64,000 nucleotides of DNA, from positions 1 through 64,000 of the forward strand of contig NZ_JAIVLL010000002.1 of NCBI RefSeq assembly GCF_020524625.1, in the 5' to 3' direction. The first letter of the stretch is position 1, and each line of letters begins with the position of its first letter. This DNA comes from Brevundimonas poindexterae. Lineage in GTDB: Bacteria; Pseudomonadota; Alphaproteobacteria; Caulobacterales; Caulobacteraceae. The translations under genes and the position numbers were made by a program. The notes under the pieces are model-generated. The model made no database searches, was not told the origin of the DNA, and was given only the letters and a program-made list of their open reading frames with translations. Positions 3,061 through 24,521 of the stretch are shown here, piece after piece.

Positions 3061-3933
3061 CTACCGCCCCTTCTTATAAGGCCCGCGCTTGCCGGGCACC
3101 GGCTTAGCCGCGTCGATCCGCTCCACAATGTCCTCCAGAGACCAAAGGCGATCCGTGATGCCAGCGGCCATTGCCGGGGTTACGCGCAGCGTCTTGTGGA
3201 TACGGCAGAAGTTATAGAAGGCAAAATACAGGGCAAGCGCGTGGATATGGTTATCCAGCTTCTTTGAGAAGGCATTGGTCAGGCGGGTGAAGCGGCGGTT
3301 CTGCATCCGGATCGACAGGTTCATCCGCTCAACGTGCGAAGTCGAGACGTGTGCCTTGTCTGGCCTGCCCTCAACCCGGACCTTGCGGATGCCGGAAAGG
3401 GCGGCAGGGCTATACCGGCCCGGCGCAACCGTCGTCGGGCCGTAAAGCTTGACCAATTGGGCGTAATCCACATCGCCGCCGAAGGCCCCCTCTACGGCCT
3501 CCAGATAAGCCCGATGGCCGTCCGTGGTCAGTTGCACCCGGTTGGACAGGCGCGAGCGAAGGTCGTCCATAAGGCAGATAGCGGACTCGCTGCCCCTATC
3601 CCCGACGAAGTAACTGACCATCAGCTTCGTATCAGCGTCGATGGCTGTCCACGTCCACACATCGCCAGCACCCTCCGGGGCGGCTTTGGCGTTCGGGACG
3701 TTCTTCGCCTTGGCGTAGGTGAAGGACCAGATTTCGTCGCACTGGATGCGCGAGGCCTTCACGTTGCGGACCTGTTCATCGTGAAGGGCGAGGCAGGCTT
3801 CACCGGCATCGACCAGCAGCTTAGTCACCGTGTTGATCGACACGTCGGCCACCCGACTGATCGACCGCATGGACGAGCCCTCGCACAGCATGGCGAGGAT
3901 TTGGGTGCGCTTGGCGAGAGGCAGCTTGTTCAT
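3061..3933 (-). CDS. IS1-family-like DDE transposase
   Basis: 290 aa in a single frame. The N-terminal helix-turn-helix (KRTQILAMLCEGSSMRSIS... VSINTVTKLL, residues about 8-41) would bind the terminal repeats. The RNase H-like core has plausible catalytic acids at D66 (IQCDEIWSF), D138 (LTTDGHRAY) and E202 (SHVERMN), followed by the basic NRRFTR segment. ATG at 3933 starts the recognised N terminus (MNKLPLAKR); upstream in-frame codons are not conserved-looking. Unlike classic IS1 no frameshift is needed to make it. It is intact, so the flanking 20-bp repeats could still be mobilised. Confidence 0.88.
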   Translation of the reverse strand: MNKLPLAKRTQILAMLCEGSSMRSISRVADVSINTVTKLLVDAGEACLALHDEQVRNVKASRIQCDEIWSFTYAKAKNVPNAKAAPEGAGDVWTWTAIDADTKLMVSYFVGDRGSESAICLMDDLRSRLSNRVQLTTDGHRAYLEAVEGAFGGDVDYAQLVKLYGPTTVAPGRYSPAALSGIRKVRVEGRPDKAHVSTSHVERMNLSIRMQNRRFTRLTNAFSKKLDNHIHALALYFAFYNFCRIHKTLRVTPAMAAGITDRLWSLEDIVERIDAAKPVPGKRGPYKKGR

Positions 3934-4062
3934 GACGTGCACAATGCATGAACATCGGAGTCCAGTCAAGCATTTTGTTCAGTATGGAGTCGTTAACGGT
4001 TGGCTTGTGGATTTTTCGAGGCGGGCGCTTGCAACTCTGCCGGATTGCGTTAACTTAGTTGC

Positions 4063-8798: not shown

Positions 8799-10589
8799 TC
8801 AGCCGAACGCGAGTCGCAGGGTATGGGTGAAGGGCGTTTCGCCGGTGATGTAGACCTTGTCGCCCGCCAGATTCAGGCGTCCGCCCGCCCAGCTGTACTG
8901 TTCGCCGGAACTGAGACGCGGCACGACATCGCTGCCGCCCGGGCCGAAGCGCAGGCGCTGCCCCTCAACCGTGTAGGTGGCCTCGCCGCCAGTCAGCAAG
9001 CCGCCAACGCCGGCGACCTCCTGAACTCCGGTCAGCGTGCCGCCCGGGCGCAGGGTGATTTCGATGGCGATGCCCACCTCGGCCTCGCCGTCCGTGCTGA
9101 ACTCCAGCGCATAGCCGTCGCTCTGGGGCCGGGCCACCATCTGGATGGCCAGCCGCCGGAAGTGGGCCGGGCGGTGGCTGAAGTCGAGCGAGCTGTTGAA
9201 CCGCCCGTCCACCGACTTGCTGAGCGCATAGGCCCCGTCCGGATCCCGCCGCTCGGCCGGCATCGGCAGATAGTAGGGCACGTTCATTTCGCCGCTCAGG
9301 GTGACCGTGCCGTCGTCGGCCAGGGCGATGTCGGACGGGCGGAAATGGCCCATGCTGAAGAAGTCTGGGATCACCCGGATGGCGTCGATGACCAGCGGGC
9401 CCTTCCACAGGCGCATCAGGGTCGGATTGGTCGCCAGGCCCGAGCCGATGGTGTTGTAGAAGCGCGAGGGCTCGCCATCCTCGTACCAGTCGCTGCCGGC
9501 ATAGAAGCTGGCCGTCATGTCGCCGCGCCGCTCCCGCACCAGATTGACGGTCCGGAAATAGCGCTGGAAGTCGACGAAGGGCTGCACCGGCGCCGGGATG
9601 GGTCCGGCCAGTTTCGGATGGTCGAGGAAGTCAGCCAGGGCGTCGCCCAGCTGGCTGCTGTCGTTCTGTTCGATCCAGCGGACGATGCCGGCGAAGCGAC
9701 GGTCATCGAAATCCTGCGCCAACTCCCGGTACTGGAGGTAATAGGGGTGCAGGGTCTGCTTGCTCTGGGCCTGATCCTGACGCCGCGAATAGATGGTCTC
9801 GACGTCGCCGTAATGCGGCTCGGCCATCTCGATGGTGGTCTCGAGGTTGCGGCGCACCAGCTGCTTCAAGCCCCCAAGACCCGGCAGGCGGGACAGGCGT
9901 AGCAGGGACGGATTGCTGACCGCCTGGGCATAGTTGGAGCTGCGCTCGGAATAGATGCCCTCGGCATTGATATCGACGCCCTCGGCCAGCCATTCGTCGA
10001 TCCGCGCGCGATAGGCGGGATTGGGATCGACGCGGTCGATCCGGGCCAGCGCCGCCGACAGTTCCCAGCGATGGTTCGGGGTGTGGATGCCGCCCGTACG
10101 CAGGGCGGGTCCCGCCTTGCGCATCATGGCCGCCAGACGGCTGGAGATGTCCCGCACCACCGGATGCCGGATTCCCTCGGCCGCCTCGGTCATGGCGCCC
10201 ATGTCTTCCATCAGGAAGGCCGAGTCGGGCGGCGAGTGGCGGTTGCCCCCGCTGAAGGTGCCGTCGTCGTGCTGGGCCGCCTCGACCTGGCTGAGCAGGG
10301 TCTCCATCGGCGCCTCGAGCGCCGCGCTGTGGTGGTAGCGGGAGTCCGGCCAGATGTAGGGGGTAAACAGGCGGCGCAGTTGCCGGAGCGTGCCGCGCGC
10401 CCCGCCCCGACCTGATCCCGCCCCTTCCATGCCTTCCAGCACCTCGGCCGCCAGCCGGTCCGCAGCCTCGGTCAGCAGGGCCAGGGTGCCCGCGTCCTTC
10501 GCATCACTCCGGGCAAAGGCCCGCCCGGGCCCCGACAGCGCGAAGGCGGTAGACGCCGCCGTGCCGGTGAGGAAGGTGCGTCTGTGCAT
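8799..10589 (-). CDS. Tat-exported lyase-like (alpha/alpha toroid) protein of the inositol locus
   Basis: 596 aa. The N terminus MHRRTFLTGTAASTAFALSG is a twin-arginine signal, so the protein is exported folded. Residues about 40-330 are helical repeats with tract NHRWELSAALARI (N172-H173) and DINAEGIYSERSSNY (Tyr213, Tyr220). This layout recalls heparinase II/III and PL8/PL15/PL17 lyases, where Asn/His neutralise the uronate and Tyr is the base. Residues about 380-596 look like an antiparallel beta-sandwich. I do not recognise the family with certainty. It lies 107 bases after the TonB receptor in the same direction, beside the inositol genes and a GH105-type hydrolase. A uronate-glycan lyase in the periplasm is the best inference. 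Confidence 0.6.
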   Translation of the reverse strand: MHRRTFLTGTAASTAFALSGPGRAFARSDAKDAGTLALLTEAADRLAAEVLEGMEGAGSGRGGARGTLRQLRRLFTPYIWPDSRYHHSAALEAPMETLLSQVEAAQHDDGTFSGGNRHSPPDSAFLMEDMGAMTEAAEGIRHPVVRDISSRLAAMMRKAGPALRTGGIHTPNHRWELSAALARIDRVDPNPAYRARIDEWLAEGVDINAEGIYSERSSNYAQAVSNPSLLRLSRLPGLGGLKQLVRRNLETTIEMAEPHYGDVETIYSRRQDQAQSKQTLHPYYLQYRELAQDFDDRRFAGIVRWIEQNDSSQLGDALADFLDHPKLAGPIPAPVQPFVDFQRYFRTVNLVRERRGDMTASFYAGSDWYEDGEPSRFYNTIGSGLATNPTLMRLWKGPLVIDAIRVIPDFFSMGHFRPSDIALADDGTVTLSGEMNVPYYLPMPAERRDPDGAYALSKSVDGRFNSSLDFSHRPAHFRRLAIQMVARPQSDGYALEFSTDGEAEVGIAIEITLRPGGTLTGVQEVAGVGGLLTGGEATYTVEGQRLRFGPGGSDVVPRLSSGEQYSWAGGRLNLAGDKVYITGETPFTHTLRLAFG

Positions 10590-10696
10590 GATAAGCTCCG
10601 CTGTCCGGATTTACTGGGTCTTCGGGGTCTGCCCCCTCCTAGGCCCGGCCGACACCGCCCGAAGGCGAACATCGACCGGGCTTCCGGGGAGGAAGA

Positions 10697-13669
10697 CTAG
10701 AAGGTTGCCCGCAGGGTCATGGTCACGGTGCGACCGTCATAGTCGGCGCGTCGCGGCATGTTTTCCTGATTCTCATACTCCACCCGGATCTCGTCGGTCA
10801 GGTTGTAGGCGTCCAGGCCCAGCGAGATGGTGTCGTTGATGTTGTACGAGGCCGACAGGTCGATCTGGCCGCGCGAGCGAACCTGACGCGCCGCGCCGGT
10901 GAAGCTGGCGGTCGAGGCCAGGTCGTATTCGCTGCGCAGGTTGTAGACCAGCCGGATGCCGTAACGCTCGGTCTCATAGTAGCCGATGACGTTCAGGTTA
11001 TGCTCCGACACGCCTGGCAGGGTGGCGTCCTCGCCCGTCGTCGTCTTCCCGCTGACGGTTGTGTAGGCATAGTTGAAGCCGCCGCCCATGTTGGACCAGA
11101 AGCCCGGCAGGAAGTCGAACGACTGCTGCAGGTTGAACTCGGCCCCGCTGACGGTGATCGGATTGTCCTGGTTGGTGAAGCCCGAGATGTTCACCTGATA
11201 CGGGAGGGTCACCCCGCCCTGGGTATAGGTCAGGCTGCTCAGGCACTGGTCACCGCTGACGGTAAAGGTCCCGATACCGAGACCGCCGCCATCCGCCGGA
11301 CACAGCACATTGATGTCGGTGATCGGTCCGATCAGGCCGGTGATGCGCTTGGTGAACAGCGCCAGCGAGATGATGCTGTCGGGCCGGTTGTACCATTCCG
11401 CCGAGAAGTCGAACGACGTGGCGTCGTAGGGCTCCAGCTCCGGATTACCCAGGGTCACGGTGTAGGTGCCGTTCGTCGAGGGCGCGCTGACGACCGTGCT
11501 CGGCGAGAACTGCAGCGGCTGGGGCCGAACGTAGCTTTGATAGGCGGCCGCGCGCAGCACCACGTCGGGCGTCGGCTCGGCGATCACGATGAACGACGGC
11601 AGCCACTTGTCGTAGTCCTGCTGGTACCGCTGGGGTACGAAGTCGGACGGGGCACCGATATTGTTGGTGACCGTGACACGCGTCAGGGCATCGACGGTGT
11701 TCTCGGCGGCCTCGTAGCGCAGGCCGACATTGCCGTGGACCGGCATGGTGCCGATGTCGAACGCGTACTTCAGCTGGCCATAGGCCGCGAAGATGTCGGT
11801 GCCGTTGGTGAAGTTGTCCCGCGCATAGGCGTTGTTGGCGTAGTTGATGTTGTAGCCTGACGGCGACAGCTCGGCCCCTGGATAGACCGTCACCGGCCGC
11901 AGGGCCGTGATGGCGCGATCCAGATCGACGACCTGCCAGTTGTCGGTCGGCTGACCGCCCTGACCGTTGAAGAAGTCCGAAGCGAAGGGCGCGGTCACCA
12001 GGAAGTCGGAGGTGACGTTCTGGATCGGCAGGCCATAGGCCATGATCCGGTAGCCCTCGGCGATGAACTTGACGCTCTCGTAGACGCCGCCGAACTGGAA
12101 TCCGCTCAGGATCCCGCCGTCGTACAGGTCGCGCTCGATGTCGATGCGGGCCGTCTCGGCTTCACTGGTCCCCATGGTCTGGGTGCCCTGGAAGTTGAAG
12201 CGGTTGGTGCGCAGCGCCGGGTTGGCGTTGTCGAACCAGGCTCCGGACGCGCCCACGCCGCCCCAGACGCCCGTGCTGATCCCCGCCGTGGTCACGGCCG
12301 GGGTCGGCTGAAGGATCTGGACGTGGTTGTCGATATTGTCGCCGCCGGTGACCAGACGACCGTTGATGCCGTTGCCGCCTGCGGTCTGGAGCGTCTCGAA
12401 GTCGACCGAAATCTCGATCGAGTCATTCTCGGCTCGCGACAGGGCGGCGGTACCGCTGACCGTCCAGCCGTCGTCGCTCTGCCATTCACCCGTCAGGTTG
12501 AAGCCCCAGACCTTCTGCGTCTGGCTGAAACCGCGGGTCGAGGAGGTGATGTCGGCGTTGGCGAAGCTGAAGTCCTCGACCACATAGCGGCCGTCGTCCA
12601 TCTGCACCGGAGCGCTGTTGGCGGTCAGCACACTGGACGCGTTGTTCGAGGTGATCAGCAGATACTGCGTGGTCATCGGCAGATCGCGATCGGAGTAGAA
12701 GCCCGAAATCCCGATGCGGGTCTGATCGTTCAGCCGGTATTCGGCGCCGATAGCCCCCGTGACCAGATCACCCTCGTTCAGGCGCACATACTGACGGTGC
12801 TGGGCGTCATACAGAACGCCGGCGGTCGAGCTGCTGCCGGTGCACGACGGACAGGCCGCCGAGGTCGCATAGTACGGATACAGGGCCGGGTTGAGCTCGG
12901 CCTGGGCCGGCGTGAAGGCCGCGTAGCTGTTGAACAGGATGGTGTCGCGGCGGAAGTCTTCATGGCGCCAGGCCAGGGTGCCGAAGACCGCGAAGTCATC
13001 GCTGAAGTGGTGGTTGTACCCGATGGTTGCGGCCGGCGACCAGGTCTCGCCCAGCTCATTGTACTCGGACGCCACCTTCATGAAGCCGCCATCGGTGCGG
13101 CCGAGCGCCGGTGCGATGCGCAGGTCGACGTTGCCGGACAGGCCGCCACTCTGGGCGTCCGCCAGCGGCGACTTGTTGACCACAATGGCGCTGAAGATGT
13201 CGGAGTTGAAGGCCCCCAGCGGCGCAGATTCCCGCAGGATCGGTTCGGCAAAGGCCACGCCGTTCAGGGTCAGGCGCGAGAACTCGCCCGGCAGGCCGCG
13301 CAGGTTGATGGTGGCGTTGCGGCCTTCCGCCTCGCGATTGATCTGAACGCCCGGCACCCGCTGCAGGGCCTCACCGACGTTCAGGTCGGGGAAGCGACCC
13401 AGACCGTCCGACGAAATGCCGTCGGTGATGGAATCCTCATCGCGCTTGGACGCGATGGCATTGGCGTAGCTCTGGCGGAAGCCGGTGACGACGATCTCGT
13501 CGACCTGGGTCTCCTGCCGGGGCTGGGCGTCCTGTTGGCGGTCAGGGTCCTGCGACGACGACTCATTGGCCGGAGCGTCCTGCGCCATGGCCAGAGTGGG
13601 CAGTCCTGCGAGGGCGGTGGCCCCCAGCAGGACAGTAGCAAGCATGCGCATGTTCGGGCGATACGCCAT
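10697..13669 (-). CDS. TonB-dependent receptor of the inositol locus
   Basis: 990 aa from ATG at 13669, with GGAGG 8 bases upstream. It has a signal peptide (MLATVLLGATALAGLPTLAMAQ), a TonB-box-like segment (DEIVVTGFR), a plug domain (LNVGEALQRVPGVQINREAEGRNATINLRGLPGEFSRL) and a long 22-strand-type barrel ending in TMTLRATF with a terminal Phe. It belongs to the large Caulobacter/Xanthomonas receptor class that imports plant-derived sugars. It is upstream of the lyase-like gene on the same strand. An IolR-like motif (13722-13736) sits in its promoter region, so it is probably co-regulated with inositol catabolism. Confidence 0.9.
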   Translation of the reverse strand: MAYRPNMRMLATVLLGATALAGLPTLAMAQDAPANESSSQDPDRQQDAQPRQETQVDEIVVTGFRQSYANAIASKRDEDSITDGISSDGLGRFPDLNVGEALQRVPGVQINREAEGRNATINLRGLPGEFSRLTLNGVAFAEPILRESAPLGAFNSDIFSAIVVNKSPLADAQSGGLSGNVDLRIAPALGRTDGGFMKVASEYNELGETWSPAATIGYNHHFSDDFAVFGTLAWRHEDFRRDTILFNSYAAFTPAQAELNPALYPYYATSAACPSCTGSSSTAGVLYDAQHRQYVRLNEGDLVTGAIGAEYRLNDQTRIGISGFYSDRDLPMTTQYLLITSNNASSVLTANSAPVQMDDGRYVVEDFSFANADITSSTRGFSQTQKVWGFNLTGEWQSDDGWTVSGTAALSRAENDSIEISVDFETLQTAGGNGINGRLVTGGDNIDNHVQILQPTPAVTTAGISTGVWGGVGASGAWFDNANPALRTNRFNFQGTQTMGTSEAETARIDIERDLYDGGILSGFQFGGVYESVKFIAEGYRIMAYGLPIQNVTSDFLVTAPFASDFFNGQGGQPTDNWQVVDLDRAITALRPVTVYPGAELSPSGYNINYANNAYARDNFTNGTDIFAAYGQLKYAFDIGTMPVHGNVGLRYEAAENTVDALTRVTVTNNIGAPSDFVPQRYQQDYDKWLPSFIVIAEPTPDVVLRAAAYQSYVRPQPLQFSPSTVVSAPSTNGTYTVTLGNPELEPYDATSFDFSAEWYNRPDSIISLALFTKRITGLIGPITDINVLCPADGGGLGIGTFTVSGDQCLSSLTYTQGGVTLPYQVNISGFTNQDNPITVSGAEFNLQQSFDFLPGFWSNMGGGFNYAYTTVSGKTTTGEDATLPGVSEHNLNVIGYYETERYGIRLVYNLRSEYDLASTASFTGAARQVRSRGQIDLSASYNINDTISLGLDAYNLTDEIRVEYENQENMPRRADYDGRTVTMTLRATF

Positions 13670-13822: not shown

Positions 13823-14803
13823 CTAGAGACGGACCACTGCGCCTTCGGCAGCCGAGCGGGCAGCCGCCTCGGCGAGTTCGAGGGCCGCGACGCCGTCGTT
13901 GTGATCGATCAGCGGGTTGGCGCCGTCCAGCACATCGGCGAAATGATCCATCTCGCGCGCATAGGCCACGCGGTAGCGGTCGAGGAAGAAGTTCTGGAAA
14001 CGGTCGGCGGCAGCGCCGTTTGCGGTCCAGGTCTCAACCGTCGTCTCAAGCTGATTCTGCGCGCGGATCATGCCGCCCGACCCATAGGCCTCGATCCGCT
14101 GGTCATAGCCATAGCCGCTGCGGCGGCTGCTGGAGATCACGCACAGGCGCCCGCCGGCGGTCTTGAGAATCGTCTTGGCCGTATCGACGTCCCCGGCCTC
14201 GCCGATCGCGGGGTCGACTAGCACGGAGGTGGTCGAAAACACTTCCACGACGGGCTCGCCCAGCAGCCAGCGGGCCATGTCGAAGTCATGGATGACCATG
14301 TCCTTGAACAGGCCGCCGGAGGTGCGGACGTAGTCGGCAGGAGGGGGAGCCGGATCGTGACTGATGATATGGAGAGTCTCGAGCTCACCCACGACACCCT
14401 CTACCAATCGCGCCTGCAAGGCGGCGAAATTGGCATCGAAACGCCGGTTGAAGGCCAGCAGGATCGGCTGCCCCAGCGAATCGAAGGCTGCCGCGGCCTC
14501 TTTCGCGCGGTCGAGATCCTGATCGAGGGGCTTTTCACAGAACACGGCCTTGCCTGCCCGGGCGGCGGCCAGGCTGTAGTCCAGATGGGTGTCGGTCGAG
14601 CTGGCGATGATCACGCCCCGGATCGATGGGTCGGCGAACACCTCTTCGACGCTGCGGGTGGCCGCGCCATACTGATTGGCCAGTTCGGCTCCGGCGGGCG
14701 TGGGATCGGTGACGCTGACCAGTTGCAGCCGGGCGTTGGCCGCCGCATTGGCCGCGTGAATTCGACCGATGCGCCCCGCGCCGATCAGTGCCACAGTGTG
14801 CAT
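13823..14803 (-). CDS. iolG: Inositol 2-dehydrogenase, Gfo/Idh/MocA family
   Basis: 326 aa from ATG at 14803; GAGG lies 8 bases upstream, while the ATG at 14809 is too close to it. The Rossmann fingerprint is VALIGAGRIGRIHAANAA. The catalytic segment is EKPLDQDLDRA, with the family Glu-Lys-Pro; the sequence GGLFKDMVIHDFDMARWLLGEP gives the Asp-xxx-His-like pair of inositol dehydrogenases. It would oxidise myo-inositol to scyllo-inosose with NAD+, the first step of the pathway. It is divergent from the RpiR regulator, with a strong IolR-type site between them. Confidence 0.87.
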   Translation of the reverse strand: MHTVALIGAGRIGRIHAANAAANARLQLVSVTDPTPAGAELANQYGAATRSVEEVFADPSIRGVIIASSTDTHLDYSLAAARAGKAVFCEKPLDQDLDRAKEAAAAFDSLGQPILLAFNRRFDANFAALQARLVEGVVGELETLHIISHDPAPPPADYVRTSGGLFKDMVIHDFDMARWLLGEPVVEVFSTTSVLVDPAIGEAGDVDTAKTILKTAGGRLCVISSSRRSGYGYDQRIEAYGSGGMIRAQNQLETTVETWTANGAAADRFQNFFLDRYRVAYAREMDHFADVLDGANPLIDHNDGVAALELAEAAARSAAEGAVVRL

Positions 14804-14901
14804 AGTCATTCCCTCGAACACGAATATCGCAGGGACGATCCCCTGGAAAAGTCGTGACATACCGGCTTCCTTCGCGACACGCGAGAGTTGCCAGTGAAAA
14901 A

Positions 14902-14941: not shown

Positions 14942-15820
14942 ATGGAACAGACGCCGCCCGCGCCCGCCTCGGCTGAAGAGCTCAGGGCCCAGATCGTCCT
15001 TCGCTATGAGGGGCTGAGCAAGCGACTCAAGCAGATCGCCCGGCACATTCTCGACGAGCCGAACGACTTTGCGCTCGAAACCCTGTCGGTCATCGCCTCG
15101 CGGTGCGGGGTCCAGCCCTCGACCATTGTCCGTTTCGCCAAGACGTTCGGTTTCGAGGGCGCCAGCCAGATGCAACGGCTGTTCCGCGATGGCCTGCTGA
15201 ACAGCCACGCGGCGCTGGGATATTCCGAGCGAATCCGCCAGCTGAACGAGACGACCCACGACGAGGCGACCAAGCCGGCCGACCTGCTGTCGGAGTTCGT
15301 CGAGGGCAATATCCTGGCCCTGCAGAACCTGACCCAGACCGTCAGCCGCCAGGAGATCGAGGCGGCCGTCCAGATGATCTCGAAAGCCGCGACCGTGCAT
15401 GTCACGGGATTCCGGCGTTCCTTCCCGGTGGCCTCCTACCTCGTCTATTCCTTGCTTCAGGCGGGCAAGCGGACCGTTTTCATCGACGGGGTGGCGGGCC
15501 TCGCCATGCCCCAGGTCAAGTCCATCGCCCCCGACGATCTGCTGATCGCCATCAGCTATCACCCCTATGCGGCCGAGACCGTGGCCGTGGTCGAGGCCGC
15601 ACGGGAGGGTGGCGCGCGGGTTCTGGCCATCAGCGACAGCGCCGTCAGTCCGATCTCGGCGCCGGCCGATCTGGCCCTGCTGACCCGCGAATCGGAGGTG
15701 CGGTCGTTCCGGTCGCTGTCGGCCTCCATGTGCCTGGCCCAGGCCCTGGTGATCAACTTTGCGTTTGCCGCCACCCAGCCTGACGAAAAGCCCGCGCGCA
15801 AGCGCCGGAGCGCGTCCTGA
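14942..15820 (+). CDS. iolR: RpiR-family regulator of inositol genes (IolR-like)
   Basis: 292 aa. The N-terminal RpiR helix-turn-helix (residues 15-90; LETLSVIASRCGVQPSTIVRFAKTFGFEGASQMQRLF) is joined to a SIS sugar-phosphate isomerase domain (about 125-265; VHVTGFRRSFPVASYLVYSLLQAGKRTVFIDG ... LLIAISYHPYAAETVAVVEAAREGGARVLAISDS). In Caulobacter and rhizobia the RpiR protein IolR represses inositol genes until a pathway sugar phosphate binds the SIS domain. It lies between iolG and the iolC operon and has IolR-type motifs on both sides. Confidence 0.88.
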   Translation: MEQTPPAPASAEELRAQIVLRYEGLSKRLKQIARHILDEPNDFALETLSVIASRCGVQPSTIVRFAKTFGFEGASQMQRLFRDGLLNSHAALGYSERIRQLNETTHDEATKPADLLSEFVEGNILALQNLTQTVSRQEIEAAVQMISKAATVHVTGFRRSFPVASYLVYSLLQAGKRTVFIDGVAGLAMPQVKSIAPDDLLIAISYHPYAAETVAVVEAAREGGARVLAISDSAVSPISAPADLALLTRESEVRSFRSLSASMCLAQALVINFAFAATQPDEKPARKRRSAS

Positions 15821-15880
15821 AATACCCGTTCCGTTCGCCGGAATTGTGAAACGGGTATTGCGATTTTGGAATTGATGAAA
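15821..15880. promoter_or_regulatory. Compound operator region upstream of iolC
   Basis: Contains perfect inverted arms AATACCCGTT (15821-15830) and AACGGGTATT (15850-15859). The left arm runs into GTTCC, giving a partial match to the IolR motif. Two imperfect direct repeats GGAATTG(a)TGAAA follow (15840-15851 and 15868-15880). It lies just before the iolC start at 15914. Both regulator exit and iolC promoter lie here, so it is the likely control point for the iol operon. Confidence 0.5.
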
Positions 15881-15913
15881 TAGTCGTTTTGGACACCGGG
15901 GCGTCTGAAACGA

Positions 15914-17854
15914 ATGATCACAAGCACTTCCAGAAACGAAAAACGCCGCCCGCTCGACCTGCTGACGCTGGGTCGGGCCGGCATTGATCTGTATGGCGAA
16001 CAGATCGGCGGACGCCTGGAAGACATGGCGACCTTCGCGAAATATGTGGGCGGCAGCCCGACCAACACCGCCGTCGGCGCGGCCCGGCTGGGCCTGAACG
16101 CCGGCCTGATCACGCGGGTTGGCGACGATCATTTCGGCCGTTTCCTGCGCGAGGAACTGGGCCGCGAGGGGGTCGATACGTCCGGCATGACGACCGATCC
16201 GGACCGGCTGACGGCGCTGGCCGTGCTGGGCATCCGCGACCCCGACACCTTTCCGCTGATCTTCTTCCGCGAGAACTGTGCCGACATGGCCCTGTCGGTG
16301 GACGACATCGACCCGGCCCTGATCGGTCGGGCCGGGGCCCTGCTGGTCAACGGCACCCATCTGTCCCAGCCCGGCGTGTTCGACGCCAGCCTCAAGGCCG
16401 CGAAGCTGATGAAGGCCCAGGGTGGTCGCGTCGTGTTCGATATCGACTATCGCCCGGTGCTGTGGGGGCTGACGTCCAAGGCCAATGGCGAGGACCGGTT
16501 TGTCGCCAGTGCGCGGGTGACCGAGCGCCTGCAGCAGGTGCTGCCGCTCTGCGACCTGATCGTCGGCACCGAAGAGGAAATTCATATTCTTGGCGGCACG
16601 GACGACACCCTGGCCGCCCTGCGCGCCATCCGTGACCAAAGCCCGGCGCTGCTGATCTGCAAGCGCGGCCCCGACGGCTGTGTCGCCTTCCCGGGCGCCA
16701 TCCCCGACTCGCTCGACGACGGCGTGGCCAGCCGGGGCTTTCCTATCGAGGTCTTCAATGTTCTGGGGGCGGGTGACGCCTTCATGGCCGGTTTCCTGCG
16801 CGGATGGCTGCGCGACATGCCGCTGGAAAGCTGCTGCGAGATGGCGAATGCCTGCGGGGCGCTGGTCGTGTCGCGCCACGGCTGCGCGCCGGCCATGGCG
16901 TCATGGGACGAGCTCCAGACCTTCCTTGCAGGCCAGTGGCCGCACCGCCTGCGCGAAAGCGCCATGCTGGAACAGATCCACTGGTCGACCAACCGTCACG
17001 GAGACCATGCCGACCTGACCGTGCTGGCCATCGATCACCGCAGCCAGTTCGACGACCTGATCAAGGACCTGGGCGTCGGCGACGAACAGGCGGTTGCCCA
17101 TTTCAAGGGGTTGGCGCTCAAGGCCGTGGATCGGCTGGCACAGGGCGACGGCCGCTATGGCATGCTGCTGGATGGCCGATTCGGCGCCCGTGCGCTTGAG
17201 GCCGCTGCCGACCTTCCCTACTGGATCGGACGTCCGATCGAGTATCCGGGCTCGCGGCCGCTGGCCTTCGAGGGCGGTCCCGATGTCGCGGCCACCCTGC
17301 GGGAATGGCCGATCAATCACGTGGTCAAATGTCTGGTCTTCTACCACCCCGATGACGACGCCGAGCTTCGCGCCAGACAGGACCGCCAGATCCTGCGCCT
17401 GTACGACGCCTGCCGCTCGACCCGGCATGAACTGCTGCTTGAAATCATTGCCTCCAAGCATGGTCCCGTCACCGGCGACACGGTGGCGCGGGTGATCAAC
17501 CACGTCTACGACCTCGGCGTCTATCCGGACTGGTGGAAGCTGGAACCCACCAGCGACGCGGCGGCATGGGCAGCCAGCGAGGCCGCCATTCTGGAGCACG
17601 ATCCGCGGTGCCGGGGCATTGTCCTGCTGGGCCTGTCGCAGACCCAGGACCAGGTGCTGGCCGGGATTTCCGCCGCCGCCCCCTTCCCGCTGGTCAAGGG
17701 CTTTGCCGTCGGGCGGACGATCTTCCACGACGTCGCTGCCCAGTGGCTGAAGGGCAAGCTGGACGACGAAGGCGCCATTGCCCAGCTGACCGAGAACCTG
17801 CGGGTGCTGGCCGAGGCCTGGCGCCAGGCGCGACGCGCACGGGCCGCAGCATGA
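15914..17854 (+). CDS. iolC: IolC: 5-dehydro-2-deoxygluconokinase fused to DUF2090 aldolase-like domain
   Basis: 646 aa, nearly twice the length of a free kinase. Residues 10-340 are a PfkB-type kinase: substrate-binding GGSPTNTAVGAARLG (46-60) and the catalytic GAGDAF at 285-290. It phosphorylates 5-dehydro-2-deoxygluconate. Residues about 350-640 are DUF2090 (DHRSQFDDLIKD, then the barrel with HELLLEIIASKHG and GVYPDWWKLEP). This domain resembles class I-like aldolases and is thought to do the IolJ step, cleaving the phosphorylated acid to malonate semialdehyde and DHAP. It heads the iol operon and ends in an ATGA overlap with iolD. Confidence 0.9.
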   Translation: MITSTSRNEKRRPLDLLTLGRAGIDLYGEQIGGRLEDMATFAKYVGGSPTNTAVGAARLGLNAGLITRVGDDHFGRFLREELGREGVDTSGMTTDPDRLTALAVLGIRDPDTFPLIFFRENCADMALSVDDIDPALIGRAGALLVNGTHLSQPGVFDASLKAAKLMKAQGGRVVFDIDYRPVLWGLTSKANGEDRFVASARVTERLQQVLPLCDLIVGTEEEIHILGGTDDTLAALRAIRDQSPALLICKRGPDGCVAFPGAIPDSLDDGVASRGFPIEVFNVLGAGDAFMAGFLRGWLRDMPLESCCEMANACGALVVSRHGCAPAMASWDELQTFLAGQWPHRLRESAMLEQIHWSTNRHGDHADLTVLAIDHRSQFDDLIKDLGVGDEQAVAHFKGLALKAVDRLAQGDGRYGMLLDGRFGARALEAAADLPYWIGRPIEYPGSRPLAFEGGPDVAATLREWPINHVVKCLVFYHPDDDAELRARQDRQILRLYDACRSTRHELLLEIIASKHGPVTGDTVARVINHVYDLGVYPDWWKLEPTSDAAAWAASEAAILEHDPRCRGIVLLGLSQTQDQVLAGISAAAPFPLVKGFAVGRTIFHDVAAQWLKGKLDDEGAIAQLTENLRVLAEAWRQARRARAAA

Positions 17855-19686
17855 GCCACACTGTGCGCCTGACCATGTCCCAGGCCCTGACGCGCTGGTT
17901 GTCGGTCCAGCACGTCGAGATCGACGGACAGGTCCTGCCCTATTTCGCGGGTGTCTGGGCCATCTTCGGGCACGGCAATGTCGCGGGCATGGGCGAGGCC
18001 CTGGCCTGGATGGAAGACACCCTGCCGACCTTCCGGGCGCACAACGAACAGGGCATGGCCCACGCCGCCATCGCCTTTGCCAAACAAGCCCGGCGCCGCC
18101 GCGCCATGGCCTGCACCACCTCGATCGGGCCCGGTGCGACCAATATGGTGACGGCGGCCGCCCTGGCACACGTCAATCGCCTGCCGGTGCTGTTCCTGCC
18201 GGGCGACATCTATGCCTCGCGCCGTCCCGACCCCGTGCTGCAGCAGATCGAGGACTTCGCCGACGCCACCGTCAGCGCCAATGACTGTTTCCGGCCGGTG
18301 TCGCGATGGTTCGACCGCATCACCCGGCCCGAACAGATTCTGGACGCCCTGCCCCGCGCCATGGCGACCCTAATCGACCCGGCGACCTGCGGTCCGGTCA
18401 CCCTGGCCCTGTGCCAGGACGTTCAGGCCGAGGCCTATGACTATCCCGCAGCCTTCTTCGCGCCGCGCACCTGGCGCACGCCGCGCCCGCGTCCCGACAC
18501 GCAGGATCTGGCCGATCTGGTCGCGGCAATCCGGTCGGCGAAGGCGCCGCTGATCGTGGCTGGCGGCGGGGTTCTGTATTCCGGGGCCGAAGAGACCCTG
18601 TCGGCGCTTGCGGCCGCGACCGGCCTTCCGGTCGGCGAGACCCAGGCCGGCAAGGGCAGCCTGCCGTGGGATCATCCACAGGCGCTTGGCTCGATCGGGG
18701 TGACCGGCACCAGCGCGGCCAATGACGCCGCCGAGGCTGCCGATCTGATCGTCGCGGTCGGCACCCGGCTACAGGACTTCACCACCGGCTCGCGGACGAT
18801 GTTCGCGGGCAAGCGGTTGTTCCAGATCAATGTCGCGGGCTTTGATGCGACCAAGCATGGCGCCCACCGGGTGCAGGGGGATGCCCGCGAAGTCCTGACC
18901 GAGCTGTCGGAGGCGCTGGGCGATTGGACGGTGTCAGCTGACTGGCGCGGGCGCTGCGCCGACGGCGTCGCGGACTGGAACACGGCGTGGGAGACGGCCA
19001 CCGCCGCTTCGGACGCCCTGCCGTCGGACGGTCAGGTGATCGGGGCCGTCTGGCGTCAGGCGAATGAGGATGCGGTCGTGGTGTGCGCCGCCGGTGGCCT
19101 GCCGGGTGAGTTGCACAAGCTGTGGCGGACGCACCGGTCCGGCGGTTACCACGTGGAGTACGGCTTCTCGTGCATGGGCTATGAGATCGCCGGCGGCGTC
19201 GGCGTGAAGCTGGCCGAGCCGGACCGCGAGGTCTTCGTCATGGTTGGCGACGGCAGCTATCTGATGATGAATTCCGAGCTGGCGACAGCGGTGATGCTGG
19301 GCCAGAAGCTGACCGTCGTGCTGCTGGATAACCGCGGCTATGGCTGCATCAACCGGCTGCAGCAGGCCACGGGCGGACGGCCCTTCAACAATCTGCTGGA
19401 CGATGCGCGCCACGCCGCGCCGGCCGACATCGACTTCGCCGCCCACGCCCGCGCTCTGGGCGCGGAGGCCGAAAAGGTCAACGGCATTGCTGAACTGGAA
19501 CAGGCGCTCGCGCGGGCCGCGGCCAGCGACCGCACCCATGTCATCGTCATCGACACCGACCCGGTGGTGACCACAGAGGCCGGCGGCCACTGGTGGGACG
19601 TCGCCGTGCCGGAAGTCTCAACCCGCGCCGAGGTCCGCGAGGCCCGGCGCATCTACGAAGCCCGGATCAAGGGAGAGGGTGAATGA
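17851..19686 (+). CDS. iolD: IolD: 3D-(3,5/4)-trihydroxycyclohexane-1,2-dione acylhydrolase
   Basis: 611 aa. ThDP-dependent fold in three domains. The N-terminal HNEQGMAHAAIAFAKQ holds the conserved Glu of the ThDP site; the C-terminal GDGSYLMMNSELATAVMLGQKLTVVLLDNRGYGCI is the diphosphate-binding motif. It opens the inositol ring, giving 5-deoxy-glucuronate. ATG at 17851 overlaps the iolC stop by 4 bases and its own stop overlaps iolE by 4, which means tight translational coupling. Confidence 0.95.
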   Translation: MSHTVRLTMSQALTRWLSVQHVEIDGQVLPYFAGVWAIFGHGNVAGMGEALAWMEDTLPTFRAHNEQGMAHAAIAFAKQARRRRAMACTTSIGPGATNMVTAAALAHVNRLPVLFLPGDIYASRRPDPVLQQIEDFADATVSANDCFRPVSRWFDRITRPEQILDALPRAMATLIDPATCGPVTLALCQDVQAEAYDYPAAFFAPRTWRTPRPRPDTQDLADLVAAIRSAKAPLIVAGGGVLYSGAEETLSALAAATGLPVGETQAGKGSLPWDHPQALGSIGVTGTSAANDAAEAADLIVAVGTRLQDFTTGSRTMFAGKRLFQINVAGFDATKHGAHRVQGDAREVLTELSEALGDWTVSADWRGRCADGVADWNTAWETATAASDALPSDGQVIGAVWRQANEDAVVVCAAGGLPGELHKLWRTHRSGGYHVEYGFSCMGYEIAGGVGVKLAEPDREVFVMVGDGSYLMMNSELATAVMLGQKLTVVLLDNRGYGCINRLQQATGGRPFNNLLDDARHAAPADIDFAAHARALGAEAEKVNGIAELEQALARAAASDRTHVIVIDTDPVVTTEAGGHWWDVAVPEVSTRAEVREARRIYEARIKGEGE

Positions 19687-20576
19687 CCATCCGCTGGGGG
19701 GTCAGCCCCATTGCCTGGGCGAACGACGACATGCCCGAACTGGGCGGCGACATCACGCTGGATGCGCTGCTGACCGATGTGAAGGAGATCGGGTTCGAGG
19801 GCGTCGAGCTGGGCAACAAGTTTCCGCGCGATCCGGAGTCGTTGAAGCCGATCATGGGGCGCTACGGGCTCGACATCGTCGGCGGCTGGTATTCGTCAAA
19901 TCTGCTGGTGCAGGACGCCGAGGCCGAGATCGCCGCCATGGAATCCCATATGGCGCTGTTGCAGGCCATGGGCTCCAGCGTCTTCATCCTGGCCGAGACC
20001 TCGAACGCCGTGCATGGCGACCGGGAGGGCGGTCGGCTGGATTCTCCGCCTCGCCTCGCGCCCGGCGACTGGGCCATGTTCGGCCAGAGACTGAACCGGG
20101 TAGCCGCCCACGCCAACGATCAGGGCATGCGGTTCGCCTACCACCACCATCTGGGCACAGTGGTCGAGACCCGTGAGGACCTGAACCGCTTCTTCGGCGC
20201 GACCGGGGATCACGTGGGTCTGGTGCTGGACACCGGCCACGCCGTCTATGGCGGCATCGACCCGATCGAGGTGGCCACTACCCGGCCTGAGCGCATCAGC
20301 CACGTCCACTGCAAGGACGTCCGCACCGAGCGGCACGCCAAGTTCCGGGCGGCCGGCGACAGCTTCCTGAACGGGGTGGTCGGCGGCATGTTCACCACGC
20401 CCGGCGACGGCGACTATGACTATCCGGCCTTCATGGCCGCGCTGAAGGCCGTCAACTATTCCGGCTGGATCGTCATCGAGGCCGAGCAGGACCCGGCGGT
20501 CGCTGACCCGCGCGAATACGGCCAGCTGGGTCTGGATACGCTGAAGCGTCTGGCCGGCGATGTGGGGCTGGTCTGA
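19683..20576 (+). CDS. iolE: IolE: inosose dehydratase
   Basis: 297 aa TIM-barrel of the xylose-isomerase-like AP-endonuclease family. Typical segments are IRWGVSPIAWANDDMPELGG, YHHHLGTVVET, and VLDTGHAVYGGIDP with HVHCKDVR, which supply metal-binding His, Glu and Asp. It converts scyllo-inosose to 3D-trihydroxycyclohexane-1,2-dione. It is between iolD and iolB with overlaps at both ends. Confidence 0.95.
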   Translation: MTIRWGVSPIAWANDDMPELGGDITLDALLTDVKEIGFEGVELGNKFPRDPESLKPIMGRYGLDIVGGWYSSNLLVQDAEAEIAAMESHMALLQAMGSSVFILAETSNAVHGDREGGRLDSPPRLAPGDWAMFGQRLNRVAAHANDQGMRFAYHHHLGTVVETREDLNRFFGATGDHVGLVLDTGHAVYGGIDPIEVATTRPERISHVHCKDVRTERHAKFRAAGDSFLNGVVGGMFTTPGDGDYDYPAFMAALKAVNYSGWIVIEAEQDPAVADPREYGQLGLDTLKRLAGDVGLV

Positions 20577-21367
20577 TGACCCTGCTGGTCCGCCCCCATG
20601 CCGCCGATGACGCCGGAACCGTACTTGAGGTCACGCCGGAGAGCGCGGGCTGGCGCCATGTCGGCTTTCGCGTGGTGAAGCTGTCGGCGGGACAGTCTCA
20701 CAGCGGGGGCGAGGCCGGGCGCGAGGCCTGTCTGGTGGTGCTTTCCGGCACGGTCACGGTCGCCGCGGATGGCGAGACCCACGCCGGACTGGGCGAAAGG
20801 GCCGATGTCTTTTCCGGGGCTCCGGCCTCGGTCTATCTGCCGGCGGGCGTGGACTGGTCGATCACGGCCGAAAGCGAGGCCGAAGTCGCCGTCTGTTCGG
20901 CCCCCGGGACCGGCAAGGGCGCCGTGCGTGTGCTGCGCCCGGAGGCGGTCGAGGTGCGCGGCAAGGGCACCAACACCCGCCATGTCCGCAACATTCTGTC
21001 TGACGCCGACGATGTGGCCGAGAGCCTGCTGGTGGTCGAGGTGATCACCCCGGGCGGCAACTGGTCCAGCTATCCGCCGCACAAGCACGACCGCGATGCC
21101 GCGCCGGACGAGACCCTGCTGGAAGAGACCTATTACCACCGGCTGTCGCCGCCACAGGGCTTCGCCTTCCAGCGCGTCTATACCGAGGACGGGTCGATCG
21201 ACGAGACCATGGCGGTCCACGACGGCGACGTCGTCATGGTGCCGCGCGGCTACCACCCGGTCGGGGCTCCGCACGGGTACGACCTCTACTACCTGAATGT
21301 CATGGCCGGACCGGTGCGCAAATGGGTCTTCCAGAACGACCCGGCGCACGACTGGATCGTGCGGTGA
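20576..21367 (+). CDS. iolB: IolB: 5-deoxy-glucuronate isomerase
   Basis: 263 aa bicupin. It carries the signature YPPHKHDRDAAPDE...LEETYYHRLSPPQGFAFQRVYTEDGSIDETMAVHDGDVVMVPRGYHPV, which provides the metal-binding His and Glu. It isomerises 5-deoxy-glucuronate to 5-dehydro-2-deoxygluconate, the IolC substrate. The start shares a base with the iolE stop. Confidence 0.95.
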   Translation: MTLLVRPHAADDAGTVLEVTPESAGWRHVGFRVVKLSAGQSHSGGEAGREACLVVLSGTVTVAADGETHAGLGERADVFSGAPASVYLPAGVDWSITAESEAEVAVCSAPGTGKGAVRVLRPEAVEVRGKGTNTRHVRNILSDADDVAESLLVVEVITPGGNWSSYPPHKHDRDAAPDETLLEETYYHRLSPPQGFAFQRVYTEDGSIDETMAVHDGDVVMVPRGYHPVGAPHGYDLYYLNVMAGPVRKWVFQNDPAHDWIVR

Positions 21368-21378
21368 CGGAGACTTCC

Positions 21379-22881
21379 ATGCGACAGATTTCCCACGTCA
21401 TTGCCGGCGAGACCGGCCCCGCTGGCACGCGCACGGGCGAGGTGTTCGACCCCGGTTCCGGTCAGGTGCAGGCTCACGTCAGCCTGGGCGTCGCGGCCGA
21501 TCTGGAGCGGGCCATCGTGGCCGCACGGGCCGCCCAGCCGGCCTGGGCACGGGTCAATCCGCAGCGCCGTGCCCGCGTCCTGTTCCGGTTCAAGGAACCG
21601 GTCGAGGCGAACATGGACGCGCTCGCCGAACTGCTGTCGTCCGAGCACGGCAAGGTCGTGGCCGATGCGCGCGGCGACATCCAGCGCGGTCTGGACGTGA
21701 TTGAATTCTCGTGCGGCATCCCGCATGCGCTGAAGGGCGAATACACTCAAGGAGCCGGCCCGGGCATCGACGTCTATTCGATGCGTCAGCCGGTCGGCAT
21801 CGGGGCGGGCATCACCCCGTTCAACTTCCCGGCCATGATCCCGATGTGGATGTTCGGGCCGGCCATCGCCTGCGGCAACGCCTTCATCCTCAAGCCCTCC
21901 GAGCGCGATCCGTCGGTGCCCAACCGGCTGGCTGAATTGATGCTCGAGGCCGGCCTGCCGGAGGGAATCCTGCAGGTCGTGCACGGCGACAAGGAGATGG
22001 TCGACGCCATCCTCGACCATCCCGCCATCAGCGCCGTCAGCTTCGTCGGCTCGTCCGACATCGCCCAGTACGTCTATGCCCGGGGCGCCGCCGCCGGAAA
22101 GCGGGTGCAGGCCATGGGCGGCGCCAAGAACCACGGCGTGGTCATGCCTGACGCCGATCTGGACCAGGTCGTCGCCGACCTGTGCGGGGCCGCCTTCGGC
22201 TCGGCCGGCGAACGGTGCATGGCCCTGCCGGTCGTGGTGCCGGTCGGCGACCGGACGGCCGACGCCCTCCGCGAGCGTCTGATCCCCGCCATCGATGCCC
22301 TGCGCGTCGGCGTACCCGGCGATCCGGACGCCCACTATGGCCCTGTCGTCACGGCCATCCACAAGAAGCGCATCGAGAACTGGATCCGCATCGGCGTCGA
22401 GGAAGGCGCCGAACTGGTCGTCGACGGTCGCGACTTCACCCTGCAGGGGCATGAGAACGGCTTCTTCGTCGGGCCGTCGCTGTTCGATCATGTGACGCCC
22501 GCGATGGAATCCTATCGCGAGGAGATCTTCGGCCCCGTCCTGCAGATGGTCCGGGCGCCCGATTTTGAGAGCGCCCTCGCCCTCGCCGACCACCACCAGT
22601 ACGGCAACGGCGTCGCCATCTTCACGCGCAACGGCCACGCGGCGCGCGAGTTCGCCAGCCGTGTCCAGGTCGGCATGGTGGGCATCAATGTGCCGATCCC
22701 GGTGCCCGTCGCCTACCACAGCTTTGGCGGCTGGAAGCGCTCCGGTTTCGGCGACCACAACCAGCACGGCATGGAGGGCGTCCGCTTCTGGACCCGCATG
22801 AAGACCGTGACCCAGCGCTGGCCCGACGGCATGGCGCCGGGCGCCGCCGCTGATGCCTTTGTGATTCCGACCATGGACTGA
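21379..22881 (+). CDS. iolA: IolA/MmsA: (methyl)malonate-semialdehyde dehydrogenase
   Basis: 500 aa aldehyde dehydrogenase from ATG at 21379 (GGAG 6 bases upstream). Expected blocks are present: PFNFPAMIPMWMFGPAIACGNAFILKPSERDP (cofactor), GSSDIAQYVYARGAAAGKRVQAMGGAKNH, and GSAGERCMALPVVV with the catalytic Cys. NPQRRARVLFRF is typical of MmsA. It turns malonate semialdehyde into acetyl-CoA, closing the pathway. It is the last of the five enzymes in the coupled operon. Confidence 0.95.
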   Translation: MRQISHVIAGETGPAGTRTGEVFDPGSGQVQAHVSLGVAADLERAIVAARAAQPAWARVNPQRRARVLFRFKEPVEANMDALAELLSSEHGKVVADARGDIQRGLDVIEFSCGIPHALKGEYTQGAGPGIDVYSMRQPVGIGAGITPFNFPAMIPMWMFGPAIACGNAFILKPSERDPSVPNRLAELMLEAGLPEGILQVVHGDKEMVDAILDHPAISAVSFVGSSDIAQYVYARGAAAGKRVQAMGGAKNHGVVMPDADLDQVVADLCGAAFGSAGERCMALPVVVPVGDRTADALRERLIPAIDALRVGVPGDPDAHYGPVVTAIHKKRIENWIRIGVEEGAELVVDGRDFTLQGHENGFFVGPSLFDHVTPAMESYREEIFGPVLQMVRAPDFESALALADHHQYGNGVAIFTRNGHAAREFASRVQVGMVGINVPIPVPVAYHSFGGWKRSGFGDHNQHGMEGVRFWTRMKTVTQRWPDGMAPGAAADAFVIPTMD

Positions 22882-22925
22882 GCGTGCCGCGCGCCACGCG
22901 AGTCCGGCGCGCACAAGAACGACTT

Positions 22926-22943
22926 CCCCGGCACTGACCGGGG
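22926..22943. terminator. Hairpin between iolA and the symporter gene
   Basis: CCCCGG - cactga - CCGGGG just before the ribosome-binding site of the next gene. It could be an attenuating hairpin or mRNA-processing site; no T-run is present. Confidence 0.4.
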
Positions 22944-22960
22944 CAGCAGGAGGACAAGCC

Positions 22961-24496
22961 GTGACCGACCCCATCGCCGCCCGGCCCGCGATGCCGACGC
23001 ACCCGACCCGTCCGGTGCGCTGGTACAATATGACCGCCTACGGGCTGAACGATGTGCTCGGCGGCGGCTCCATGACCGTCATCGGCACGTGGATCCTGTT
23101 CTTCTACACCACCTTCTGCGGGCTCTCGGTGGCCCAGGCGACGCTGATCTTCGGAGTGGCGCGCATTCTGGATGCGGTGGCCAGCCCGGTCATCGGCCAC
23201 CTGTCCGACAGCCTCGGCCGTGGGTGGATCGCGCGCACCTTCGGACGGCGCCGGTTCTTCATCCTGGCCGCCATCCCCCTGCTGCCGTCGTTCGCCCTCA
23301 TGTGGCTGCCGGGCCAGACGTTCTGGTACTACCTGATCACCTACGTCCTGTTCGAGCTGGTCTATGCGATGGAGATCATCCCGTACGAGACCCTCGCCTC
23401 GGAAATGGCCACCGACTACAAGACCAAGGCCCAGATGGCGGGCGCCCGCATCCTGTGCGGACAGCTGGCCTCGGCCGGGGCCGCCTTCCTGCCGGGCTGG
23501 CTGATCACCCAGCTGGGGCCGGATGATCCCAACACCTATTTCTACATGGGCATCATCTTCGCGGTGCTGTTCATGATCGTGGCCGGCCTGCTGTACGCCT
23601 TCAGCTGGGAACGCCAGCGTCCGCCGGGCCTGGAAGAGGCCGAGCGCAAGGGGCGGCCCACCCTGCTGAACTCGATGGGATCGCTGTACCGCAACCTGTT
23701 CTCGACCCTGCGCATCCGGGCCTTCCGGCTGCATCTCGGCATGTATCTGGGCGGCTATATCAGCCAGGACATCTACAACGCCGCCTTCACCTATTTCGTG
23801 GTGTTCGCCCTGAGCGGCTCGGCCGCCATCGTGGCCGGTCTTGTCGGCGTGACCTCTCTGGTGCAGCTGGTCTCGGTGACGCTGGCGATCAACTTCGCCA
23901 TCCGCCTGTCGCCGGCGTCCGCCTATCGCTTTGCCGCCCTGTGCTTCGGTGCCGGGGTGGTGATCTTCATCGGCATGTATTTCGCCGGCCTCAACGCCGC
24001 CTCGGTGCTGCTGTGGCTGCCGGTCGTGGTGGCCGGCCTGGGCCGCGGCGCCCTCTATTATGTGCCGTGGGCGACCTATAACTACATGGCCGACGTCGAC
24101 GAGATCGTCACGGGTCGCCGCCGCGAGGGTGCCTTTGCCGGCGTCATGACCTTCGTCCGCAAGATGAGCCAGGCCGCCGCCGTCATGCTGGTCGGTCAGG
24201 TCATGCAGGCTGCAGGCTTCGTCTCCGGTCAGGACATCCAGAGCCCGCAGGCCATTATCGCCATCGTCGCGGTTCTGGGTGCCGGCACCCTCGCCGTCCT
24301 GCTGTTCGGCGTGTTCGTCTCGACCCGTTTCAAGCTGAACCCGGCCAGCCACGTTATCCTGCTGGAAGAGATCGAGCGCTTCCGCTCGGGCGAGCGCACG
24401 CCGTCCGATCCGAAACACCAGGAGATCGTCGAGGATCTGTCCGGCTGGAAGTACGACCGCCTGTGGGGCAACAACCCCGTCGGCAACACGCGCTGA
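22961..24496 (+). CDS. GPH-family sugar:cation symporter (MFS)
   Basis: 511 aa, about 12 membrane helices. GTG at 22961 is set by AGGAGG 6-11 bases upstream. The N-terminal helices contain DVLGGGSMTVIGTWILFFYTTFCGLS, and GVARILDAVASPVIGHLSDSLGRGW is the GPH A-motif (D-x-x-x-D-P-x-x-G-x-x-x-D-R-like). The family takes up glucuronides, melibiose and xylosides with Na+ or H+. It lies 79 bases after iolA and just before the GH105-type hydrolase. No inositol ABC transporter is nearby, so it may import free inositol or an unsaturated uronosyl-inositol. Confidence 0.88.
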   Translation: MTDPIAARPAMPTHPTRPVRWYNMTAYGLNDVLGGGSMTVIGTWILFFYTTFCGLSVAQATLIFGVARILDAVASPVIGHLSDSLGRGWIARTFGRRRFFILAAIPLLPSFALMWLPGQTFWYYLITYVLFELVYAMEIIPYETLASEMATDYKTKAQMAGARILCGQLASAGAAFLPGWLITQLGPDDPNTYFYMGIIFAVLFMIVAGLLYAFSWERQRPPGLEEAERKGRPTLLNSMGSLYRNLFSTLRIRAFRLHLGMYLGGYISQDIYNAAFTYFVVFALSGSAAIVAGLVGVTSLVQLVSVTLAINFAIRLSPASAYRFAALCFGAGVVIFIGMYFAGLNAASVLLWLPVVVAGLGRGALYYVPWATYNYMADVDEIVTGRRREGAFAGVMTFVRKMSQAAAVMLVGQVMQAAGFVSGQDIQSPQAIIAIVAVLGAGTLAVLLFGVFVSTRFKLNPASHVILLEEIERFRSGERTPSDPKHQEIVEDLSGWKYDRLWGNNPVGNTR

Positions 24497-24521
24497 CGCC
24501 CCGAGTGTTCAAGGAGTAACC

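Follow-up and report, generated by a model that had tools for sequence, protein, structure and literature searches.

The locus at 8799-10589 raises the question of which reaction a protein of no named family performs, and on which substrate. In the window (the whole stretch of DNA analysed, 64,000 nt of a Brevundimonas poindexterae contig), an ORF on the minus strand starts here with ATG and encodes 596 aa. Its N terminus, MHRRTFLTGTAAS, is of the twin-arginine type proposed in a sequence-only reading of this DNA; the Tat-signal profile PF10518 matched with E=0.018, below its cut-off. A copy in a congener is 98% identical and 44 other homologues align over most of the length with 22-64% identity, hence the ORF is a real gene. 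The earlier reading could name no family, and Pfam-A, NCBIfam and PDB sequence searches with the window protein returned none either; in a 45-sequence alignment of the family, every member was without a significant Pfam/NCBIfam family or PDB match.

A helical toroid and a C-terminal beta-sandwich had also been claimed, with a structural comparison to polysaccharide lyase (PL) families as the check. An AlphaFold2 model computed on the family alignment (mean pLDDT 88.6) has helices up to about residue 328 and beta strands at 341-595, and a Bacteroidota homologue modelled separately with AlphaFold2 (pLDDT 86.7) again shows a toroid and a beta-sandwich. Among the PDB entries compared using Foldseek, the best matches were GAGase II, PL33 BT4410, PL8, PL17, PL15 and PL12, with E values of ~1e-9 to 1e-7, TM ~0.5 and ~10% identity. 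For the Bacteroidota homologue, the closest solved structures were toroid lyases as well, xanthan lyase included. By its predicted structure, an (alpha/alpha) toroid followed by an antiparallel beta-sandwich, the protein belongs to the uronate-lyase fold class of this architecture.

The two segments that had been singled out as lyase-like are present as described, NHRW at 172-175 within HTPNHRW (169-175) and EGIYSERSSNY at 210-220. In the homologue alignment, H169, T170, P171, N172, H173, R174 and W175 are invariant (45/45), as are E215, R216, S217, Y220, R270, Q271 and D272. Conservation of the named residues thus holds for N172, H173 and Y220, but not for Y213, which is kept in 38/45 sequences and replaced by five Phe, one Trp and one His. 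With an invariant Asn/His pair as possible neutraliser and an invariant Tyr as possible acid/base, H169, N172, H173, R174, Y220 and R270 constitute a putative active site in which Y220, rather than Y213, is the candidate catalytic tyrosine, judging from conservation. In PL33, Asn N238 and Tyr Y291 are part of the catalytic apparatus, and orthologues of Y291 are present in PL12, PL15, PL17, PL21 and PL39 (PMC11848413). Asn and Tyr are 53 residues apart there and 48 in the window protein (N172-Y220); no invariant residue equivalent to His444 of the PL33 beta-domain was recognised in the family. The pattern NH..W...[DE]G.Y.E...Y, drawn up with the family and the PL17-type sequences both in view, matches 8/8 PL17-type proteins and 0/3491 unrelated ORFs.

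None of the PL17/heparinase II/III-like profiles PF05426, PF07940 and PF16889 matched the window protein, and one family member reached PF05426 at 0.045. Kinship with PL17 by profile was rejected after hhalign against a PL17-type set returned a probability of 0.1%; as this comparison shows no sequence homology, the relation to PL17 is at the level of the fold only. Matches to PL8 (Lyase_8 in Pfam, hyaluronate lyase in NCBIfam) were not significant, with Lyase_8_N at 0.069 in one member and HylB at best 0.0068 in four members, and a PDB sequence search with the family profile gave no significant PL. Judged against Pfam, NCBIfam and PDB, the family looks like a separate one within a known fold class, though it may already have an unpublished PL number in CAZy. 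The earlier idea of a new PL subfamily is therefore borne out as to the predicted toroid-lyase fold and most of the named residues, neither of its two refuting outcomes having occurred, but what we find looks like a separate multi-phylum family without a Pfam/NCBIfam match and with no profile similarity to the PL17-type set.

A scan of GTDB genomes identified at least 535 confirmed relatives, 80 of which were fetched for context. These span Pseudomonadota, Bacteroidota, Actinomycetota, Verrucomicrobiota and Acidobacteriota, with Caulobacter, Devosia, Streptomyces, Kribbella and Microbacterium among the genera, alongside many Bacteroidota, Verrucomicrobiota and one Acidobacteriaceae strain. Distant copies are located on two Subdoligranulum plasmid records (Bacillota), and searches of viral contigs and phage records found no relatives. 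A weak match in another genome (G224/L004, E=8.9e-4) was taken as chance, the long open frames there looking like unrelated proteins. The more than 500 members of the family, probable sugar-acid-cutting enzymes, come from bacteria of soil, plants, fresh water and the gut; neither Pfam nor NCBIfam names this family. It is rare in its own genus, being intact in 2/37 genomes. One congener without a full copy (G035, C1:432046-432210, L003) contains a 55-residue match of 65% identity to residues 306-360, a possible remnant of a lost gene.

The substrate is best approached through the neighbouring genes, which in the window are the following:

8799-10589, minus: candidate uronate lyase (Tat-type signal; predicted toroid ~33-328, beta-sandwich ~341-595)
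10697-13669, minus: TonB-dependent receptor, Xanthomonas/Caulobacter type, directly upstream of the lyase gene (Pfam; NCBIfam TIGR01782, 4.7e-186)
13823-14860, minus: iolG, inositol 2-dehydrogenase (TIGR04380, 7.5e-121, over cut-off)
14942-15820, plus: RpiR-family regulator, iolR-like, divergent from iolG (PF01418 and PF01380)
15914-17854, plus: iolC kinase/aldolase fusion (NF047869, 1.5e-221, over cut-off)
17851-19686, plus: iolD (TIGR04377, 2.3e-282, over cut-off)
19683-20576, plus: iolE, inosose dehydratase (TIGR04379, 7.8e-109, over cut-off)
20576-21367, plus: iolB, 5-deoxy-glucuronate isomerase (TIGR04378, 2.4e-103, over cut-off)
21322-22881, plus: iolA-type methylmalonate-semialdehyde dehydrogenase (TIGR01722, 8.7e-187, over cut-off)
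22961-24496, plus: GPH-family symporter (PF13347; TIGR00792, NF007353; the closest equivalog, a glucuronide transporter, is below cut-off)
24522-25634, plus: GH88/GH105 family hydrolase, candidate unsaturated-uronyl hydrolase (PF07470, 9e-99; 3qwt, 1.8e-157; 4xuv)

The window contains a complete myo-inositol operon, with iolG, C, D, E, B and A all above curated NCBIfam cut-offs. iolG, the TonB receptor and the lyase gene follow each other on the minus strand; divergent from them, the plus strand carries the regulator, iolC-D-E-B-A, the symporter and the GH105-like gene (14942-25634). The latter matched both a GH105 profile and a close solved GH105 relative (PF07470 and 3qwt); its NCBIfam equivalog name is BglB beta-galactosidase, and nothing useful was found in the literature on the BglB/GH105 question. 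In one congener (G016), lyase, iolB and GH105 genes lie within the same 17 kb. The parts of the cluster are separable, since other congeners carry iolB or GH105 without the lyase.

Between the stop of the TonB receptor and the start of the lyase gene, a strong hairpin was predicted (10600-10700, minus; RNA MFE -49.4 kcal/mol, z -2.45), which could end transcription or set differing mRNA levels of receptor and lyase. The count of GGAA-N6-TTCC, which we take to be an iolR-type site, was not above chance, an Rfam search of 8-27 kb yielded nothing, and no sigma-70 promoter-like sites were found in 8.5-15.1 kb. About 5 kb from the lyase gene there is an IS1-family transposase-like ORF (3061-3969, minus; NF033558, 2.5e-18, below cut-off), and a putative ORF of 498 aa at 28883-30379 (minus) has no Pfam match.

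The pairing with inositol genes was unexpected and is new here, and it recurs outside the genus. Cluster proteins searched by tblastn against the fetched loci located iolG, iolB, iolE and iolD near the lyase gene in two Devosia loci, and iolG, iolE and iolA beside it in Parabacteroides, Belliella and Cognataquiflexum (in L023 also iolD); in the Devosia, Parabacteroides and Belliella-type loci, the distance is at most 10 kb. The gene for myo-inositol oxygenase (MIOX; PF05153, 2.6e-107) is a neighbour in 17 Bacteroidota loci. Among 30 Bacteroidota/Balneolota genomes with the lyase, MIOX was present in 25, and the remaining five encode a full-length IolD with 47-49% identity. Within one order (199 genomes), 9/10 genomes with the lyase had MIOX vs 25/189 without it (Fisher p=4e-7, or p=6e-5 minus three genomes already known, both ignoring phylogeny), and in five of these lyase genomes MIOX is located ~5-9 kb from the lyase gene. 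The exchange is visible in Salegentibacter (L026), where SusC, SusD-like, lyase, DUF4861-type, GH88/105 and phosphoesterase genes are followed by MIOX; this is the cluster of L023 and L037 with MIOX replacing the iol genes. No inositol gene was found within the fetched stretch of 14/35 Bacteroidota loci, and a search limited to IolD gave no close homologue in the genomes of L021 and L040.

According to tblastn, GH88/GH105 genes are present in seven lyase loci, window included. This partner is not universal, as it is absent or below cut-off in the Devosia, Kribbella and several other actinobacterial lyase genomes; there, either a different enzyme would have to complete the degradation or the model fails. 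In the 35 Bacteroidota loci, phosphatases occur in 18 and a GH92 mannosidase in 12, whereas many also carry GH28, GH43, arabinofuranosidase or GH29 genes, as would fit the use of plant cell walls in general. The neighbours inspected included neither a phospholipase nor a ceramidase. GH47 mannosidases are uncommon in bacteria; one is encoded directly upstream of the Caulobacter homologue (L008, 8408-9793). In an Opitutae MAG (L021, 3238-5331), an NAGPA-type phosphodiester glycosidase gene near the lyase is suggestive of phosphodiester-linked glycans. Two tandem giant ORFs of ~1440 aa lie just upstream of the Arcicella copy (L035, 858-5171 and 5262-9617), the first with a Por secretion tail as its sole Pfam match. 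Some Streptomyces neighbourhoods are poorly resolved because GC3-based gene calling missed the lyase itself. In L011 (11901-15152), and likewise in L017, three genes follow the lyase gene, encoding a GFO/IDH dehydrogenase, a DUF993 protein and a TIM barrel similar to sugar isomerases; they could constitute a further route for inositol or keto sugars.

A twin-arginine motif is found in the copies from Alphaproteobacteria and in most of the Kribbella type, and the N terminus resembles a signal in many from Bacteroidota. No twin-arginine motif is present in the 28 copies of the main actinobacterial clade or in the two from Subdoligranulum, almost all of which are also devoid of a hydrophobic segment, while ABC permeases are encoded near the lyase in most actinobacterial loci. 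Because cytoplasmic copies would be unable to reach a polymer, the signal-less copies and the permeases indicate that the substrate is probably a small oligosaccharide.

If a uronate lyase is to supply inositol catabolism with its products, it would have to act on a glycosyl-uronate-inositol. We give an even chance to the reading that the window protein is an exported toroid lyase which attacks a small glycan whose uronate sits on myo-inositol and cuts its glycosyl-(1->4)-uronate bond, for which the head of plant glycosyl inositol phosphorylceramides (GIPCs), Man or GlcN(Ac)-GlcA-inositol(-phosphate), would be the best-fitting substrate. The TonB receptor would carry the glycan to the periplasm, where N172 and H173 would neutralise the uronate carboxylate and Y220 serve as base and acid, so that the 4-O substituent is eliminated and a 4,5-unsaturated uronyl-inositol results. 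This product would be imported by the GPH symporter and split by the GH105-like enzyme, and the inositol would be degraded by the iol operon. Among the glycosphingolipids of plant membranes, GIPCs predominate; their linkages are alpha-1,4 to GlcA and alpha-1,2 to inositol. In plants, a plant-specific transferase adds GlcA to inositol phosphorylceramide, and this GlcA bears Man or HexN(Ac) (PMC9113257); plant extracts contain free Hex-UA-Ins and its phosphate (PMC11496612). The phosphatases and mannosidases in the lyase clusters fit a GIPC head. A working precedent exists in xanthan lyase, which removes mannose from O4 of GlcA; the literature searched contained no bacterial GIPC-glycan lyase, nor any other enzyme that degrades the glycan heads of GIPCs. 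A wider claim, which we hold somewhat more tentatively, is that of a widespread route by which bacteria consume the glucuronosyl-inositol part of plant GIPC sphingolipids, with this family as the dedicated glycan lyase and iol or MIOX as interchangeable inositol ends. Members of the family may thus let bacteria use the sugar-inositol head groups of plant membrane lipids as food, and the consistent association with inositol catabolism narrows a loose lyase-like assignment to a particular substrate that can be tested.

Fold and residues suit any uronate lyase, and an ordinary toroid lyase for some other plant uronide (glucuronoxylan, arabinogalactan or a pectin side chain) would also agree with the GH28, GH43, arabinofuranosidase, GH29 and GH92 genes in many Bacteroidota loci; the linkage to inositol genes would then reflect shared regulation by plant-derived nutrients. 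We regard this as unlikely, though worth serious consideration, since iol and MIOX, which are unrelated routes for inositol, stand in for one another close to the lyase in several distinct lineages, and a common diet would not easily account for such recurring tight clusters that include phosphatases.

Other alternatives concern the reaction itself. An oligosaccharide dehydratase would remove water from a terminal unsubstituted glucuronate, such as that of GlcA-inositol, and pass an unsaturated sugar to GH105. The ulvan enzyme P29_PDnc is a precedent feeding a GH105 (PMC8511951), and bare GlcA-Ins occurs in the plant gmt1 mutant (PMC11496612). As compared by published residues, however, P29_PDnc needs Asp248, an Arg and Lys303, with Tyr306 dispensable, whereas N172, H173 and Y220 are invariant in the lyase family, which makes a dehydratase improbable. 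Least of all do we expect a uronate C5-epimerase of the DS-epi1 type, which would use the same fold and Tyr/Asn apparatus without cleavage: human DS-epimerase 1 is indeed among the fold matches (6hzn, rank 21) and shares that apparatus (PMC11848413), but it is hard to see what an epimerase would do in catabolic clusters, which in seven loci, window included, contain a GH88/GH105 partner.

Among known systems, the proposed lyase of the GIPC head shares its glycan with the Botrytis GIPC phospholipase C (BCIN07g04350), which detaches the head group from the lipid but does no more, leaving the glycan uncut. The ulvan oligosaccharide dehydratase P29_PDnc acts ahead of GH105 on uronate-ended oligosaccharides, but with different reported catalytic residues. 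PL17, PL15, PL12 and PL21 lyases have the fold class in common with the window protein, and PL17 also the order of the NH...W and DG.Y.E...Y motifs, though without profile-profile homology to the PL17-type alignment. PL33 (BT4410, 8r6z) is among the best full-length structural matches (TM ~0.54), and its Asn and Tyr have candidate counterparts at similar spacing (N238-Y291 vs N172-Y220); it differs in sequence (9-11% identity), in cutting glycosaminoglycans and in its His444, for which the family offers no identified invariant equivalent. PL8 xanthan lyase (2e22; Paenibacillus 6f2p) matches the fold of toroid and beta-sandwich, yet at 8-11% identity, with no PL8 model above threshold and with the window protein being smaller. 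It cuts the terminal side-chain mannose from GlcA O4, and an unsaturated glucuronyl hydrolase takes the next step of the pathway.
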